DNA from: Paludisphaera soli | Lineage (GTDB): Bacteria > Planctomycetota > Planctomycetia > Isosphaerales > Isosphaeraceae | Reading direction: 5' to 3' | Assembly (NCBI RefSeq): GCF_011064595.1 | Contig: NZ_JAALJI010000008.1 | Coordinates: 62,001-126,000, forward strand | Length of the DNA: 64,000 nt | Shown here: positions 41,126 to 48,912 of the stretch, in pieces | Layout of the letters: every line of letters starts with the position of its first letter | How positions within the stretch are numbered: the stretch's first letter is position 1 | Position numbers and translations under genes: made by a program | Notes under the pieces: model-generated | The model's input: only the letters and a program-made list of their open reading frames with translations | What the model was told of the DNA's origin: nothing | Databases searched by the model: none

Positions 41126-42640
41126 GTGACCGAACCGCGCGTCCAAATCACGAACCGGAAACCCGTCCGATGGTTGGATCGGCAGCAGCAGGCGCTGGCC
41201 GACATCAGCCGATTGTGGCGGGAGTACGGGGGAGATCTCGAACGGACGATCCGAGGGGTCACCGAGGCCACCTCGTCCGCGCTCGGCATCGCGCGGGTGA
41301 GCTTCTGGCGGTACAACAGGGCGAAGCGGACCATCGTCTGCGAGGACCTCTACGAGTCGGAGTCGAAACGTCATTCGAGCGGTATGCGATTGCCGGCGGG
41401 GCGAAGTCCGGCGTACTTCAAGGCGCTCGAATCCGAGGAGGTGATCGCCGCCGTCGACGCGCGGGCCGACCCGCGCACCTTCGAATTCGCGGATTCCTAC
41501 CTCGGGCCGCTGGGCATCGGGGCGCTGCTGGACGCGCCGGTCCGCGTCGACGGCCGGCTGGCCGGCGTGCTCTGCCTCGAACACGTGGGCGGCGTGCGGG
41601 AGTTTCGGGACGACGAAGTCCGGATGACCACCTATCTGGCCGACATGATCGGGGCGTTCCTCACGGTCGGCGACTGGTGCGGGGGGCAGACGGGGCGCGG
41701 CCGGGCTTTCGGGCAGCTGCTCGCGGCGGGGGAGAAGCTTGAGGAGCTGATCCGGGACGAGATGGCTGTCTGGCGGATCCTGTTCGAGCAGTCGCGAGAC
41801 GGGATCGTCGTGCTCGACATGGATGGCCGCGTGGTCGCGGCGAACAAGATGTATTCCCAGCTCCTGGGCTACTCGGAGGACGAGATCCACGAGCTGAGCG
41901 TGTGGGATTGGGACCTCGTCTTCGAAAGGAAGCAGGTGCGTGAGAAGCTCCGGTCGGTGAACGCGTCGGGCGATCACTTCGAGTCCCGGCACAGGCGGAA
42001 GGACGGGACGGTCATCGACGTGGAGATCAGCACCAACGGGGCCCTCTTCAAGAACCGGAAGCTGATCTTCTGCTTCGTCCGGGACGTGACCGAGCGCAAG
42101 CGGGTCGAGGAGCGGCTTCGCGTCCTCGCCACGACCGACGGCCTCACCGGCGTCGCCAACCGCGTGGAATGTTCCAGGAGGCTGGCGGGGGATCTCGAGC
42201 GGGCCAGGAGATACGACTCCCCGTTCTCGCTGATCCTCTTCGATCTCGATCATTTCAAGCAGGTGAACGACAACCACGGTCATGACGCGGGGGACCGGGT
42301 CTTGCAGAGCTGCGCGCGGCTGGTGGTCGACAGCATCCGCCGCGTCGACGTCGCGGGGCGCTGGGGGGGCGAGGAGTTCCTAGTGCTCCTCCCGCATTCG
42401 AGGCTGGACGCGGCGGCGAACGTGGCCGAGAAGATCCGGCAAGCCATCGCCCAGCACCGGTTCGACGAGGTCGGCTCGGTCACGGCCAGCCTCGGCGTGG
42501 CGGAGTTCTCCCGGCAGGACGATTCCAAGTCGTTGCTCAGGCGTGCGGACGAGGCGCTCTACCGGGCGAAGGCCCGGGGGCGGAATTGCGTCGAGGTCGC
42601 CCCGGCGAAGGAGCGGGACCTCCGGTGGTTCGCCTCGTGA
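41126..42640 (+). CDS. GAF-PAS-GGDEF diguanylate cyclase
   Basis: 504 residues from GTG 41126. GAF domain at about 15-190 (LADISRLWREYGGDLERTI; LGIGALLDAPVRVDGRLAGVLCLEHVGG), PAS at about 215-330 (LFEQSRDGIVVLDMDGRVVAANK; FVRDVTERKR), GGDEF at about 335-495. The active site reads GGEEF (414-418), and the product-inhibition I-site RRVD (405-408) stands five residues before it, so active, feedback-controlled c-di-GMP synthesis is expected. No transmembrane helix, so the sensors read a cytoplasmic ligand. The ribosome site is weak. It is the only intact cyclase in the window and lies 10 kb from the pilT/ATPase cluster that c-di-GMP might affect. Confidence 0.93.
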   Translation: MTEPRVQITNRKPVRWLDRQQQALADISRLWREYGGDLERTIRGVTEATSSALGIARVSFWRYNRAKRTIVCEDLYESESKRHSSGMRLPAGRSPAYFKALESEEVIAAVDARADPRTFEFADSYLGPLGIGALLDAPVRVDGRLAGVLCLEHVGGVREFRDDEVRMTTYLADMIGAFLTVGDWCGGQTGRGRAFGQLLAAGEKLEELIRDEMAVWRILFEQSRDGIVVLDMDGRVVAANKMYSQLLGYSEDEIHELSVWDWDLVFERKQVREKLRSVNASGDHFESRHRRKDGTVIDVEISTNGALFKNRKLIFCFVRDVTERKRVEERLRVLATTDGLTGVANRVECSRRLAGDLERARRYDSPFSLILFDLDHFKQVNDNHGHDAGDRVLQSCARLVVDSIRRVDVAGRWGGEEFLVLLPHSRLDAAANVAEKIRQAIAQHRFDEVGSVTASLGVAEFSRQDDSKSLLRRADEALYRAKARGRNCVEVAPAKERDLRWFAS

Positions 42641-43041
42641 GTCCAGTAGGGCGGGCGCCGCCCACCTCTTCGTTCCGGACTTGGTGGGCAAAGCCCACCC
42701 TGCCCAACTCCGCTTCGGGCCGGGCTTTCCAGGTCCCGCGCTCGACCCTGAGGTCGTTCTCCGTCGCCTTCGCCCTCGACGCCGGAGGCACCCTCGACGA
42801 GACGGCCGCCGAGTTCATGGCCTAACGCTCCTCCCTGCCGGCGACGGCAGCTCGTTCCGACAGCCCATCGGCCACCGCCGGTAATCGTCCCCGTGCGAAT
42901 CCCGGGATCGGTCGTCGCTCCTCGCCGAGGCCCTCGCATCGAGTCGCCCGCCGGATGGATCGCCGTGACGGGTCGTGATAGGGTGATTCGGCGGCGGATC
43001 GGTCCGGGGAAGGGGATCGAACGCCAGAAGGACCAGCGCCG
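42641..43041. other. Intergenic stretch with a repeat
   Basis: 401 bases. Contains the palindromic repeat at 42645-42707 directly after the diguanylate cyclase stop, where it may act as terminator. The rest holds no supported gene. Confidence 0.45.
42645..42707. repeat. GGTAGGGTGGGC-family palindrome (copy 3)
   Basis: AGTAGGGCGGGC...GCCCACC on the left and GGTGGGC-AAA-GCCCACCCTGCC on the right (perfect 7-bp inner hairpin 42683-42699). Diverged copy of the element at 22255-22318. Confidence 0.7.
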
Positions 43042-43659
43042 ATGCCGATCACCTACATGCCGCCGAAGGGCCAGATCTGGGGCCATGGGGTCGGGCGACT
43101 CTCGGCCTGGCAGCTCTTCGAGCGCTCCGAGCGTTTCCTGCGCGAGCGGGCCTTGATCCTCGACCCCGGGGAGACGGAGTGGAGGGTGACCTGCGAGGCC
43201 GGATCGTCCGATGCGGTCACGGCGGCCTTCGACGCCTCGCCGCTCGTCGCCGGCCAGGGGGAGGATGTCGAGATGTCGACCCCCGACGGCAGGACCCTGC
43301 GATTCGTGACGCGAAAGCTGCCAGCGGCGTCGCTCGGGGACGCGGTGCGGTGGCTGGAGGCGCTGGAGCCGGAGTTGCGCGGCCGGGGCGACGTCCGCGA
43401 TTTCAGCCTCGATCAACACGTCGTGTTCCGGTGGAGGGCCTCGCCGGGCGGCGCGGATGCGGTACCCGGGATCTATGCTTCGACCTTCGGCGTCTGCTAC
43501 GCCCGCCCTCGCTGCGTCACCACTTGCTTCGCCTTCGCATCCGTGGAGCACTATCGCGAGATCAAGCGCTACCTCCAGGAAATCGGGCTCGTCGCCCTCT
43601 CCGACAAGCACGTCCGCCCGAAGAAGGCGATGGCCGAGGCCCCTCGGGAGGCGACCTGA
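43042..43659 (+). CDS. Hypothetical soluble protein
   Basis: 205 residues from ATG 43042 with AAGGA upstream. Compositionally a good soluble protein: AWQLFERSERFLRERALILDPGETEWRV near the start, a middle beta region (QHVVFRWRASPGG) and the ending FASVEHYREIKRYLQEIGLVALSDKHVRPKK. No known motif. The C-terminal 'HYREIKxYLxxIGLVxLSDKH' pattern occurs in families of planctomycete hypotheticals that behave like SUKH-type orphans, although I cannot show homology. Single gene, no operon; the leuA control region starts about 110 bases downstream. Confidence 0.7.
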   Translation: MPITYMPPKGQIWGHGVGRLSAWQLFERSERFLRERALILDPGETEWRVTCEAGSSDAVTAAFDASPLVAGQGEDVEMSTPDGRTLRFVTRKLPAASLGDAVRWLEALEPELRGRGDVRDFSLDQHVVFRWRASPGGADAVPGIYASTFGVCYARPRCVTTCFAFASVEHYREIKRYLQEIGLVALSDKHVRPKKAMAEAPREAT

Positions 43660-43770
43660 CGCCGCATCGACGCAACTCCGACGCATCGATTGAAAGGCCC
43701 GGGGGACCGACCGCGGGCCGGTCGCCGCGTTGGGGCCGGCGGGGCGACCGCCGCGAAGGAAGAGCGACGC

Positions 43771-43799
43771 CCTTGACCGCGAAGCCCAGTCCGCCTAGG
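43771..43799 (+). promoter_or_regulatory. Sigma-70-type promoter of the leuA leader
   Basis: TTGACC (43771-43776) and TAGGAT (43794-43799) with exactly 17 bases between. Transcription would start near 43806, 40 bases before the leader peptide. Confidence 0.6.
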
Positions 43800-43847
43800 A
43801 TCGTACCGGTCCATCATGCCGATGCGACCGATCCCGGAGCCGCCCGA

Positions 43848-43919
43848 ATGATCCTGTCGCTCACCAGCCTCGACCTCCTCCTGCTGGGCCTTCTCGGCCT
43901 TCAGGTCGGGTCGTCTTAG
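43848..43919 (+). CDS. leuA leader peptide, 23 residues, ten Leu
   Basis: ATG 43848, with GGAG eight bases upstream, encodes MILSLTSLDLLLLGLLGLQV and then GSS before TAG. Ten of 23 residues are leucine, including a run of four, all CTN codons (CTC mostly). It lies 40 bases downstream of a good promoter and 33 bases before a strong intrinsic terminator that precedes leuA. This is the classical layout of a leucine-sensing leader peptide, like LeuL of enterobacteria, although the sequence itself is unrelated. The product would have no function beyond ribosome stalling. Chance cannot be excluded since the frame is short. Confidence 0.7.
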   Translation: MILSLTSLDLLLLGLLGLQVGSS

Positions 43920-43952
43920 GGCTGGCGAGCTTCTTCGATAAAGTCGAACAGC

Positions 43953-44001
43953 GAAGCCCCGAGACTCACCCGAACGGTGGATCTCGGGGCTTCTTCGTTT
44001 T
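43953..44001 (+). terminator. Attenuator terminator before leuA
   Basis: Perfect 12-bp stem GAAGCCCCGAGA (43953-43964) and TCTCGGGGCTTC (43982-43993), loop with a small inner CACC/GGTG hairpin, followed by TTCGTTTT. Energetically very strong; 165 bases before the leuA start. Confidence 0.8.
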
Positions 44002-44165
44002 CGACGACCGGCCCCGACCACCTCCGACCGGGCGTCCCGACCTCGCTTTCGCCTTTGCGGGCGGACCGAGAAGCGGCGTACACTGAATGCAGCGATTCGC
44101 GCGGGCCCACGTCGCCTCCCAACGACCGCGGCCGCGCCCGGAACGAACAAGGAACGAGCCCAGCC

Positions 44166-45803
44166 ATGACCGCCCCCGACCCGACGGCCGCCCCCCCGAC
44201 GAACCCGAGCCCCGCCGCCCCCGAGGCCGAGACCGGCCGCGACCGCGTCCGGATCTTCGACACCACGCTCCGCGACGGCGAGCAGTCGCCGGGCGCGAGC
44301 ATGAACCTGGGCGAGAAGCTGGAGATCGCGCGGGCGCTCGCCGGGCTGGGGGTCGACGTGATCGAGGCCGGCTTCCCGATCGCCTCGGTGGGCGACTTCG
44401 AGGCCGTCCGGGCCATCGCCGCCGAGGTCGCCGGCTCGACCGTCTGCGGCCTGGCCCGCTGCAACGACCGCGACATCGACCGCGCGTGGGAGGCCGTTCA
44501 GTTCGCCCAGAAGCCGCGGATCCACGTCTTCCTGGCCACCTCGCCGATCCACCGCGAGCACAAGCTGCGGATGAGCCGCGAGCAGGTCGTCGAGCGGGCC
44601 GTCGCCGGCGTACGCCGGGCCGTCGCGCTCTGCAAGGACGTCGAATTCAGCCCCGAGGACGCCGCCCGCACCGAGCCCGAGTTCCTGCGCGAGGTGATCC
44701 GGGCGGTCATCGACGCCGGCGCGACCACGGTGAACATCCCGGACACCGTCGGCTACCTGATGCCCGGCCAGTACGCCGCCATGATCGCCGACCTGATCGC
44801 CAACGTCCCCAACATCGGCCGGGCGGTCGTCAGCACCCACTGCCACGACGACCTTGGCCTGGCCGTCGCCAACAGCCTGGCCGGCGTCCAGGCCGGCGCC
44901 CGGCAGGTCGAGTGCACCATCAACGGCATCGGCGAACGCGCCGGCAACGCCGCGCTGGAAGAGGTGGTGATGGCCCTGCGGACCCGCCACGACTACTTCG
45001 GCGTGGACACGACCATCAAGACCGAGCGGCTGTATCCCGTCAGCCGGATGCTCTCCTCCATTACCGGCCTGGCCGTCCAGCGCAACAAGGCGATCGTCGG
45101 CCGCAACGCGTTCGCGCACGAGTCCGGCATCCACCAGGACGGCATGCTGAAGAACCGTTCGACCTACGAGATCATGCGTCCCGAGGACGTCGGCGTCCCC
45201 CAGACCGACCTGGTGCTGGGCAAGCACTCGGGCCGCCACGCCCTGCGCGACCGGGTCGTCGAGATGGGCTACACCCTGAGCGACGAGCAGGTGGAGGTCG
45301 TCTTCAACGACTTCAAGGCGCTGGCGGACAAGAAGAAGGAGATCTACGACGAGGACCTGGCCGTCCTGATCGAGAAGCACCTGGGCGACGCCGTCCCCGC
45401 CTCGTGGCAGCTGCTGAGCCTGCACACGACGGCCGGCACCAGCGTCCTCCCCACGGCCACGGTCTCGATCAAGCGCCCGGACGGCGAGATCGTCCAGGAC
45501 GCGGCCATCGGCGACGGCCCGGTCGACGCGATTTTCAAGGCCGTCGAGCGCGTGACCGGCGTCCACGCCAACCTGCACGAGTTCGTCGTCCGCAGCGTCA
45601 GCCAGGGGAAGGACGCCCAGGGCGAGGTGACCCTGGAGCTGGAAGTCGAGAGCGGCGAGGCCAGCTTCCGCGGCCGCGCCGCGTCCACCGACATCATCGA
45701 GGCCTCGGCCCTGGCCTACCTCAACGCCGTCAACGCCATCAGCGCCCGCAAGGACCGCACCGACGTCCGCGAGGTCGTCGGCCGCCCCGGCGCGGGGCTG
45801 TAA
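44166..45803 (+). CDS. leuA: 2-isopropylmalate synthase
   Basis: 545 residues from ATG 44166 (AAGGA site upstream). First committed step of leucine synthesis: acetyl-CoA plus 2-oxoisovalerate to 2-isopropylmalate, cytoplasmic. DRE-TIM barrel motif [16 protein letters not shown] at 31-46, metal ligands in [14 protein letters not shown], and [15 protein letters not shown]; linker [13 protein letters not shown]; the C-terminal leucine-binding regulatory domain (residues 410-530) is complete, so allosteric feedback is expected. In addition, transcription seems controlled by the leader at 43807-44001. A possible second promoter (TTGCGG 44055-44060, TACACT 44079-44084, 18-base spacing) would bypass it. 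A hairpin terminator follows. Confidence 0.96.
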
Positions 45804-46099: not shown

Positions 46100-46242
46100 C
46101 CGCCGGCCCGGCGCGCCAGGCAGCGATTGTGGTTTAAAATCGACTGCCTTGATCGGAAGGCAAGGGAGTGGTCTCATGCGCCTGCCTCGGGCCCCGTCGC
46201 GTCCGAGCCATTTCTCTCGTCTTCATCTGGGGGGTCCTCTCC

Positions 46243-46842
46243 ATGGCCCGATTCCGAACCTTCGCCATTCCGATCCTGATCGCACTCGGGGCCTTGGGCG
46301 GCCCGACCGCCTGTGCGGAGCCGGTCCTGTACACTTTCAGCGGGGTCGGGAGCGGCGAGCTGGGTGGGGCGTCGTTCACCGATTCCGCCTATACGTTCTC
46401 CGTACTCGCGGACACGGACGACATCGACGAGATCTCGTTCGGCGCCGACTCCTCGGTCATCCTGGACATGACCGCGACGATTGAGATCGCCGGCCTCGGG
46501 CTCGCCACGATCACCGATCCCGTCTTCGTCTTCGTCAATCGGGCCAACACGGCCGTCGGGGTGGGGGACTACAACGCCGCCGATTACGTGAACCTGACGT
46601 CCCCGCTGCTCGCGTCCTACTTCCTGGGCACGCCCTTCGGCCCGCTGACGGCCCCGATCACTTACTTCAACGTCTCGCTCCTCGCCACCGATGCGGGGCG
46701 GCTGAACCTGACGTCCTCGGGCGACGGGGTCTTCCAGGCATCCCTCCGGAGCGTCCCCGAGCCTGCGAGCATCTCGGCGCTCGGGCTCGGCGTGGTCGGC
46801 GTCCTCGCCTTCGCGCGGACTCGGCGGAGGCAAGCGGCCTGA
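46243..46842 (+). CDS. PEP-CTERM sorting-domain protein
   Basis: 199 residues from ATG 46243 (GGGG site upstream). Signal peptide (FAIPILIALGALGGPTACAE), then a beta-sandwich-like exported domain (VLYTFSGVGSGELGGASF; SYFLGTPFGPLTAPITYFNVSLLA) and the intact PEP-CTERM tail VPEPASISALGLGVVGVLAF with a basic end. Exosortase would cleave the tail and attach the protein to an exopolysaccharide or surface. No exosortase gene is in the window. The frame is intact, in contrast to the frameshifted PEP-CTERM gene at 10226-11325. Confidence 0.85.
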   Translation: MARFRTFAIPILIALGALGGPTACAEPVLYTFSGVGSGELGGASFTDSAYTFSVLADTDDIDEISFGADSSVILDMTATIEIAGLGLATITDPVFVFVNRANTAVGVGDYNAADYVNLTSPLLASYFLGTPFGPLTAPITYFNVSLLATDAGRLNLTSSGDGVFQASLRSVPEPASISALGLGVVGVLAFARTRRRQAA

Positions 46843-46929: not shown

Positions 46930-48777
46930 TCAAGTCGTCTCGGCGTCCGCCTGCTCCCGCTTCGCCTTCCGCCAGGCGGCGGCGGAGAGGTAGCGGCCGT
47001 AGTAGGACTCTATGGCCTGGATCGCCTCCACCTGGAGGGGGGCGAAGGTCTTGGTCGGGATCTTCGCCACGTGCCGGCCGTCGCGGTCGTAGTTGATGAC
47101 GAGCGTGGGGCCGTCGAACATCATGCCGGCGACCTCGGAGAAGGCGATCCCGTCGGGCCAGGCGGAGTAGTGGAGGGCGATGCAGTCGAGGACGAGCGTC
47201 CCCTTCTTGCCCTCGAACGTGCGTTCCGGGAAGCTTCGGACGACGATCTCGCGCTCCTCCTCGCTCTCCGGGAGCAGGCGGTAGGGGAGCGTCGCCTCGT
47301 GCACGTCGCGGAACTTCTCCTCGAATTCCCGCCACTGGGCGCGTTCGATCTCCTCGGCGTCGTCGATCGCGTCGTACCAGCGGCCGTCGCCGGGCGAGGC
47401 GACGAGCGTCGAGACGTCGTGCGACCGGATCGGCACGCCGACGGCTTCAAGGCGCTGGGCCAGCGGCGGGTGGCTGTCGAACGGGTGGACCGTCGCGAGT
47501 TCGCCGAGGGCCGGGTTCGAGGCGAACGAGACCGCGTGCTCGGCGAACCCTCGCTCCAGCCGGGCCGAGATGTCGGCCGTCTCCAGCGCGTGCTGCCGGC
47601 CGAACAGGTCCTGCTGGATCCTGCCCCGGTAGTCCGAGTACGCCGAGATTCGCAGCAGCGCGGAGGCGAGGTCGCGGGGGGTCGTCGTCTCGGCCGCGAT
47701 CACGTCGGCGCGGAACTCGCGCTTCCGGCTCTGCTCGCCCAGCGAAAGCTCGAACAGCGCCCGGAAGGCGTTCAGGAAGAGGTAGACGGGCACCGCGATG
47801 GGGTTCTCGGAGAGCGATTTGAGATACAGCCCGAACCGGGCGAGCAGGGGCCCGGTCTTCTTGGAGTAGAGCGTGTCATTGCCGCTGAAGTGGGCCATCT
47901 CGTGGGCCACGACGGCGTCGGCCTCCGCGCCGGACATCTGCTTCAGGAGGGCGAGGCTGACGTAGAGCGTCCGGCCCCGGCAGACCTCGCCGTCGACGTG
48001 GACCGGGCCCTCGGTCACGAAGAAGTTGTCGTCGACCCCCACAATGACGTTGTCGGGCGGGGCCGTGCCGACCTTCTCGGCGATCGCCCGCAGGTCCTCC
48101 CAGAGTCGCGGCGAGCCCGCCGGGTCGAGGACCTTCCCCTCGACGTGGAGGGTGGAGTCCGGTTTCTGGAAGATCGCCTTGATCACCGTGATCGCCCCGG
48201 CCAAGGCCAGGAATCCGGCGACGCCGACGATCTTGATGGAGTAGAAGTTGAACCAGAGCGCCGTCACCCAGAACGAGAGGGCCAGGATCAGGACGCCCGA
48301 GACGATCGCCTGCGCCGCCCCGTAGACCCGCAGGACCTGCCAGCCGATCGCCAGGGCCCGATACTGCGCCCGCTGCGACCACCGCGAGGCCACGACGCAA
48401 AGCCCCGCGATCACGAACACCACCAGGCCCCCGACGATCGACTGCGCCGACAGCCGGATCATCCAGCGGAAGGTCGCGAAGTAGAAACGCACCGTCGAGT
48501 CGAGATTGAACTCGTCCGCCAACGCCTCGATCTGGATCAGCTCCGAGAGCGGATGCTCCTCGAAGAACGCGACGGCCTTCGCCCGCTCCTCCTCCGTCAG
48601 GCTCGCGTCCGCCCGGAGCCCCGCCAGGATCCCGTCGCGCGCCTGGGCGTCGTATCGCGCCTGGGCGTGCAGGAAGAACGCCAACGCCAGCACCGGGATC
48701 AGGAACGCCAGCACGCCCGGCAGGACGTACGTCTTCACGAACCCGGCCTTCGAAAAGTCCCGCGCCGCGTCGCTCAT
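46930..48777 (-). CDS. M48-family membrane metallopeptidase
   Basis: 615 residues from ATG 48777. N-terminal membrane helix (about 15-37) with a loop, then three more helices (about 112-132, 150-175, 182-205), followed by a zinc peptidase domain with HEMAH at 292-296 and the third ligand in SRKREFRADVIAAE. This is the Ste24/HtpX-like M48 family, involved in membrane protein quality control. The last 130 residues (ERAQWREFEEKFRDVHEATLPYRL and onward) form an additional soluble domain not part of the M48 core. The stop is convergent with the PEP-CTERM gene. Confidence 0.9.
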   Translation of the reverse strand: MSDAARDFSKAGFVKTYVLPGVLAFLIPVLALAFFLHAQARYDAQARDGILAGLRADASLTEEERAKAVAFFEEHPLSELIQIEALADEFNLDSTVRFYFATFRWMIRLSAQSIVGGLVVFVIAGLCVVASRWSQRAQYRALAIGWQVLRVYGAAQAIVSGVLILALSFWVTALWFNFYSIKIVGVAGFLALAGAITVIKAIFQKPDSTLHVEGKVLDPAGSPRLWEDLRAIAEKVGTAPPDNVIVGVDDNFFVTEGPVHVDGEVCRGRTLYVSLALLKQMSGAEADAVVAHEMAHFSGNDTLYSKKTGPLLARFGLYLKSLSENPIAVPVYLFLNAFRALFELSLGEQSRKREFRADVIAAETTTPRDLASALLRISAYSDYRGRIQQDLFGRQHALETADISARLERGFAEHAVSFASNPALGELATVHPFDSHPPLAQRLEAVGVPIRSHDVSTLVASPGDGRWYDAIDDAEEIERAQWREFEEKFRDVHEATLPYRLLPESEEEREIVVRSFPERTFEGKKGTLVLDCIALHYSAWPDGIAFSEVAGMMFDGPTLVINYDRDGRHVAKIPTKTFAPLQVEAIQAIESYYGRYLSAAAWRKAKREQADAETT

Positions 48778-48912
48778 GGATCGCCCCGCCGTCGTCGCCC
48801 GCCGCCCCGTCGGGCCCGTCGCCCGAAAACGTCGCGATCTTACAGGCGTCATTCGCGCGGCACAAGGACATGATGAATCGATGCGAGCGATTCGAAGCCC
48901 GCCGCCCCTACC

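Follow-up and report, generated by a model that had tools for sequence, protein, structure and literature searches.

The leuA gene of Paludisphaera soli is preceded by a short frame rich in Leu codons and by a strong hairpin, and this arrangement raises the question of whether the gene is controlled through translation of a leader peptide. An earlier note on this DNA had proposed as much. We followed up the proposal in the window, by which we mean the whole stretch of 64,000 nt that was analysed, and in relatives of the organism. On the evidence given below, we assign a probability of roughly 0.88 to ribosome-mediated attenuation of leuA transcription by this element.

The gene itself is located at 44166-45803 on the plus strand. 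Its product, a 2-isopropylmalate synthase of 545 amino acids, scores 731.2 bits against TIGR00973 (cut-off 598.7) and carries a LeuA_dimer domain. A second leuA-like gene of the same genome (L002) is a distant paralogue that is 33% identical, and the 450 nt before its match contain no frame with at least four Leu in 10 codons. Elsewhere in the window, a PAS/GGDEF diguanylate cyclase is encoded at 41126-42640 and a small protein with a PEP-CTERM sorting motif at 46168-46842. A frame on the minus strand at 46930-48852 carries a HEMAH motif and, judging by this motif, may encode an M48-type metallopeptidase.

Parts of the leuA leader in the window

All of the leader parts described here lie on the plus strand. 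The sigma-70-like promoter to which the earlier note had pointed, TTGACC-N17-TAGGAT, is read from the sequence at 43773-43801; such sites occur on average 0.0 times in 50 shuffles of positions 43600-44300, and the promoter is kept in relatives. Transcription from this site would start near position 43808. The leader peptide frame, MILSLTSLDLLLLGLLGLQVGSS, occupies 43848-43919 and has the composition that had been ascribed to it: 23 codons, 10 of them for Leu, with four Leu codons consecutive. Its TAG stop codon (43917-43919) lies, as had also been claimed, within a segment that pairs with positions 43860-43870 in the minimum-energy fold. We term 43860-43870 segment 1. Segment 2, at 43917-43929, consists of the stop codon followed by GGCUGGCGAG. 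Folding and covariation both indicate two alternative partners for it, segment 1 and the terminator 5′ arm, which we term segment 3.

This intrinsic terminator hairpin (helix 3:4) is predicted at 43953-43993, between the leader frame and leuA, from folding and covariation. Its lower stem has the 12 perfect pairs that had been described (43953-43964 with 43982-43993), its upper stem adds 5 bp, and its computed stability of −31.8 kcal/mol compares with a shuffled mean of −14.3 (z −6.65). The accompanying T-tract, TTCGTTTT at 43994-44001, is present in interrupted form; in some relatives, such as L035, the tract is cleaner. A simple terminator scan did not call the window hairpin, for which the scan's loop limit of 8 may be the explanation. 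The hairpin ends approximately 170 nt upstream of leuA. The leader as a whole is likewise more stable on folding than its shuffled counterparts (z −5.35).

The two mutually exclusive structures proposed previously were borne out in part. The helix of 43860-43870 with the stop region stands, and the antiterminator pairing had to be redrawn. It had been given as 43929-43938 with 43944-43948 plus 43953-43957. The inner UUCGA:UCGAA stem is common to both drawings, and folding favours, for the outer part, the pairing of 43919-43923 with 43955-43959 plus inner stems. The resulting antiterminator hairpin (helix 2:3), which draws on folding and covariation, spans 43919-43959.

Conservation of the leader among relatives

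A region was scored as carrying a Leu-rich frame if a short frame upstream of leuA contained at least five Leu in 10 codons. By this measure, 43 of the 55 leuA upstream regions in a first set, which included the window, carry such a frame, and 30 rounds of dinucleotide shuffling of the same regions gave 2.2 frames on average and never more than 6. Leu stands apart from all other amino acids in these 55 regions, the next being S (5 vs 2.6) and P (4 vs 2.3). Across the genomes sampled from the organism's class, the frame precedes leuA in 106 of 130 regions, with 30/41 in the window's family (f1), 23/24 in f2, 26/30 in f3, 10/14 in f5 and 17/21 in other families. Six of the 11 f1 regions below threshold (L013, L015, L016, L017, L027 and L030) reach four Leu in 10 codons and come with a strong hairpin.

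One genus of the window's family, g6, has no threshold frame in any of its four sampled members (L031, L032, L033 and L149). A strong hairpin is missing after the best frame of L031 and L033, L032 is without a frame, and L149 has a hairpin of different sequence. This genus may represent a natural loss of the leader, which would make it useful for comparison.

As controls, we used the sequences upstream of other biosynthetic genes in 30 relatives. A Leu frame was found before ilvB in 2 of 27 regions, before leuC in 1 of 24, before trpE in 1 of 29 and before hisG in 0 of 29. The total of 4/109, set against 106/130 for leuA, indicates that, of the five genes compared, the element belongs to leuA. 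Neither a Trp-rich frame in the 29 trpE regions nor a His-rich one in the 29 hisG regions was seen.

The promoter and the terminator also recur. Of the 106 leaders, 71 have a promoter that matches at 9 or more of 12 positions in the 150 nt before the leader frame begins (4.8 expected from shuffles); f3 is the exception, with 3 of 26. The T-tailed hairpin follows the stop codon at a median distance of 37 nt from the first base of the stop (range 13-63). A lenient terminator criterion (ΔG of −12 or below and 4 T) is passed after the frame by 97 of 106 leaders and says little, since 39.5 shuffled regions also pass, but a stricter one (ΔG of −16 or below and 6 T of 8) is passed by 52 of 106, where shuffles predict 1.2. 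At three f3 loci (L038, L039 and L042), the hairpin GGCCCCGG stands just before the leuA ribosome-binding site and its U-tract is weak; the switch may act on translation at these loci.

In other classes of the phylum the element is patchier, with the frame present in 16 of 40 regions and the frame together with a terminator in 7 of 40. Five loci from these classes (L344, L347, L376, L377 and L378) have Leu frames and terminator-like hairpins, several of which differ in hairpin sequence. A set of 80 named contigs from various phyla contains 18 with a frame no more than 600 nt from leuA, and several of these are proteobacterial; leu leaders are known in proteobacteria. Leu-rich frames before leuA were also seen in Verrucomicrobia and Akkermansia contigs (L077 and L138; MIRSGLLRRLLLLLLLEG and MNRIAVAFRCRLHWLLLLLSRAS). 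Among the proteins compared, LeuA of f3 has its best match in Limnoglobus (Gemmataceae), that of f2 in Schlesneria (Planctomycetaceae), and those of f5 and f7 in a Pirellulales contig. The named Limnoglobus contig has a weak frame of four Leu in 10 codons with a TAG stop, and a G+C-rich hairpin followed by TTTTCGTTT.

The choice of stop codon in the leaders is distinctive. UAG ends 80 of 106 leaders, compared with 22 of 106 control genes that come mostly from the window's family. When the comparison was split, with one control stop that lies inside the matched gene (L301) retained, UAG was found in 28/30 leaders vs 8/66 controls in f1 (P = 8e-15) and in 52/76 vs 14/40 in the remaining families (P = 8e-4). 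The stop is followed by G, giving UAGG, in 69 of the 80 UAG leaders, and three leaders from outside f1 (L046, L047 and L061) fold with the UAG itself base-paired to a CCUA or CCUG in the terminator arm. The attenuator reading supplies a reason for this stop preference. Leu codon usage differs from that of control genes as well, in f1 (CUU 35.4% vs 8.6%, CUA 3.6% vs 0.8%) and in the remaining families (CUU 25.2% vs 9.6%, CUA 16.9% vs 2.6%); the leaders were drawn from more genomes than the controls, so that composition is matched only by group.

Mutually exclusive helices and the computed switch

Helix conservation was assessed in an alignment (A4) of 32 f1 sequences, made by MAFFT with structure not used, onto which helices drawn from two members were placed. 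The corresponding f2 alignment (A5) is poor at the stop side, and the pair counts rest on A4. The null consisted of 500 shuffles, which ignore relatedness, and six slides of each helix. Helix 1:2, formed by leader codons and the stop region, pairs in 79.6% of cells, with 18 cells changed on both sides (6.6 when shuffled) and a covariation of 0.239 (0.176 when shuffled). Helix 2:3, formed by the stop region and the terminator 5′ arm (GGGUUCGU:ACGAA[G]CCC in many members), pairs in 89.7% of cells, with 13 both-side changes vs 3.8 and a covariation of 0.216 vs 0.135. For helix 3:4, the respective values are 96.6%, 15 vs 2.3, and 0.182 vs 0.141.

In each case, none of the 500 shuffles, in which kinship is not modelled, reaches the observed pairing percentage, number of both-side changes or covariation, and all six slides are lower in pairing and covariation. 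Not every measure separates the helices from the null. Pairs with a double change number four in helix 1:2 and four in helix 2:3, values that are reached by 223 and 66 of the 500 shuffles, and the pair types of these helices, reached by 141 and 85 shuffles, are not beyond chance. Sliding helix 1:2 by +3 gives more pairs with a double change (6 vs 4). Energy tests of the antiterminator in single sequences are mostly non-significant, with few |z| values above 2 and −0.46 for the window. Covariation of one segment with two different partners is expected of a switch, but not of a plain terminator. The earlier note had called for a search of relatives for the Leu frame and its stems, and both were found.

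The influence of ribosome position was computed with a footprint model in which the RNA downstream of the ribosome is folded, beginning 13 nt beyond the first base of the A-site codon and extending to the terminator 5′ arm. The readout is the probability that the CCC core of this arm pairs upstream, in 96 members. The arm is sequestered with a mean probability of 0.86 when the ribosome is placed at Leu codons and 0.22 when it is placed at the stop; the corresponding values for the window are 0.93 and 0.01. The difference between the stalled and the stop positions exceeds 0.3 in 84 of the 96 sequences and is below −0.3 in none, and its mean is 0.64 for the real sequences vs 0.24 with the spacer shuffled (Wilcoxon P = 1e-13). 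Nine combinations of footprint (10, 13 or 16 nt) and stall site give 0.75-0.90 for the stalled and 0.19-0.29 for the stop position, with differences above 0.3 in 64 to 87 of 96 sequences and 0 or 1 reversed. The contrast for the window is weaker with the 10 nt footprint (0.98 vs 0.46). With no ribosome present, sequestration is computed at a mean of 0.51, and at 0.26 for the window. The untranslated state is thus not cleanly off, and basal termination is only partly explained.

Mechanism, alternatives and known systems

The leader-peptide attenuation proposed in the earlier note therefore draws support from the frame, the promoter, the covariation and the computed switch. As is characteristic of an attenuator, the leader combines a Leu-rich frame, a predicted intrinsic terminator between this frame and leuA, and an exclusive antiterminator, one segment of which is, by computation, covered by a ribosome at the stop codon. 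The order of events that we propose rests on these parts together with what is established for the trp, his and leu attenuators. A ribosome would translate the 23-codon leader as the RNA emerges. If Leu-tRNA were ample, it would reach the UAG, and its footprint would cover the stop codon and the bases after it (segment 2). The antiterminator could then not form, and the terminator (3:4) would halt RNA polymerase before leuA. If Leu-tRNA were short, the ribosome would stall in the CUN codons, covering segment 1 and leaving segment 2 free, and the exposed stop-codon region would pair with the terminator 5′ arm (2:3) to permit read-through. We infer that the switch depends on leucine, that termination takes place in the cell and that the ribosome travels close behind the polymerase.

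Other readings of the same leader can be envisaged. The RNA might sense leucine or a protein directly, in the manner of the actinobacterial LEU element or as a protein-bound structure, with the Leu frame incidental or secondary. There is precedent in Actinobacteria, where Leu-rich leaders before leuA accompany a conserved pseudoknot and where mutations of the leader codons in Streptomyces coelicolor produced behaviour unlike classical attenuation (PMC1262725). Direct sensing is nonetheless very unlikely here, given that the peptide sequences differ between families, yet have in common their richness in Leu, their position and, for the most part, the UAG stop, and given that uncommon Leu codons are over-used. 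In addition, no Rfam family, including Leu_leader and T-box, matches at gathering score in 18 sources, a weak test in that seven proteobacterial loci with Leu frames also go unmatched. Even less probable is a leader that acts mainly on the translation of leuA, through re-initiation or hiding of the ribosome-binding site, instead of on termination. The f3 hairpins near the ribosome-binding site, with their weak U-tracts (L038, L039 and L042), would suit such an arrangement, but the distance of the window hairpin from leuA and the strict terminator hairpins after 52 of 106 leaders argue against it.

In the least probable of these readings, the hairpin simply terminates the gene upstream, the Leu frame arose by chance, and a separate promoter further downstream drives leuA. 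A weak candidate for such a promoter, TTTGCG-N19-TACACT, lies beyond the hairpin, and slightly altered versions of it are present in further members of the genus. The second promoter that the earlier note had placed at 44055-44084 was not retained: its match class is at chance level in 60 regions, with at least 8/12 matches in 7 regions (shuffled mean 7.3) and at least 7/12 in 29 (shuffled mean 21.0). This result, the promoter before the leader in 71 of 106 cases and the rarity of Leu frames in the control regions all count against a chance frame with a downstream start.

Ribosome-mediated attenuation requires a ribosome right behind the polymerase. If the attenuator reading is true, transcription and translation would be coupled on the leuA message. 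The lineage includes a species, Gemmata obscuriglobus, in which the two processes were proposed to be spatially segregated (Gottshall 2014, as cited in PMC5287468 and PMC5394234). Leu leaders are present at 26 of 30 loci in f3, the family whose LeuA proteins are closest to that of the Limnoglobus contig (Gemmataceae), and the leader would allow coupling to be tested there by simple genetics. We lean towards the view that the leuA attenuator, which does not recur before the four other genes tested, is an ancestral leucine switch of the Planctomycetia, including Gemmataceae, that works only with a trailing ribosome.

Planctomycete leader peptides, attenuators or leu leaders do not appear among the open PMC matches listed, and an earlier mention is possible; our best reading is that, among those matches, classical ribosome-mediated attenuation is unreported for Planctomycetota. 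A peak of short leader genes approximately 10 bp before structural genes, described for genomes that include Planctomycetes in PMC4833913, is a different matter.

One close counterpart is the enterobacterial leu attenuator (leuL), which shares a leader with Leu codons, the 1:2, 2:3 and 3:4 helices and a terminator before leuA. The E. coli leu leader also uses uncommon Leu codons such as CUA. Unlike its enterobacterial counterpart, the planctomycete leader mostly ends in UAGG, which forms part of segment 2. The operon differs as well, in that leuC is not adjacent to leuA in the window's genome, where it lies on another contig, or in G002, where the two genes are approximately 2.8 Mb apart on the same contig. 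Leu_leader is the Rfam family for the gammaproteobacterial leader; a search of window positions 43000-44800 at E ≤ 5 returned just two unrelated weak matches, with no Leu_leader and no T-box among them. The actinobacterial LEU element resembles the planctomycete leaders in its Leu-rich frame before leuA, and is described in PMC1262725 as a pseudoknot in which the run of Leu codons forms a stem with the leuA Shine-Dalgarno box; the planctomycete leaders instead conserve a terminator/antiterminator pair. In Staphylococcus aureus, a Firmicute, a leucine-rich attenuator peptide is linked to attenuation of branched-chain amino acid genes (PMC5794164), a likeness by description. A planctomycete leuA attenuator would add a phylum.
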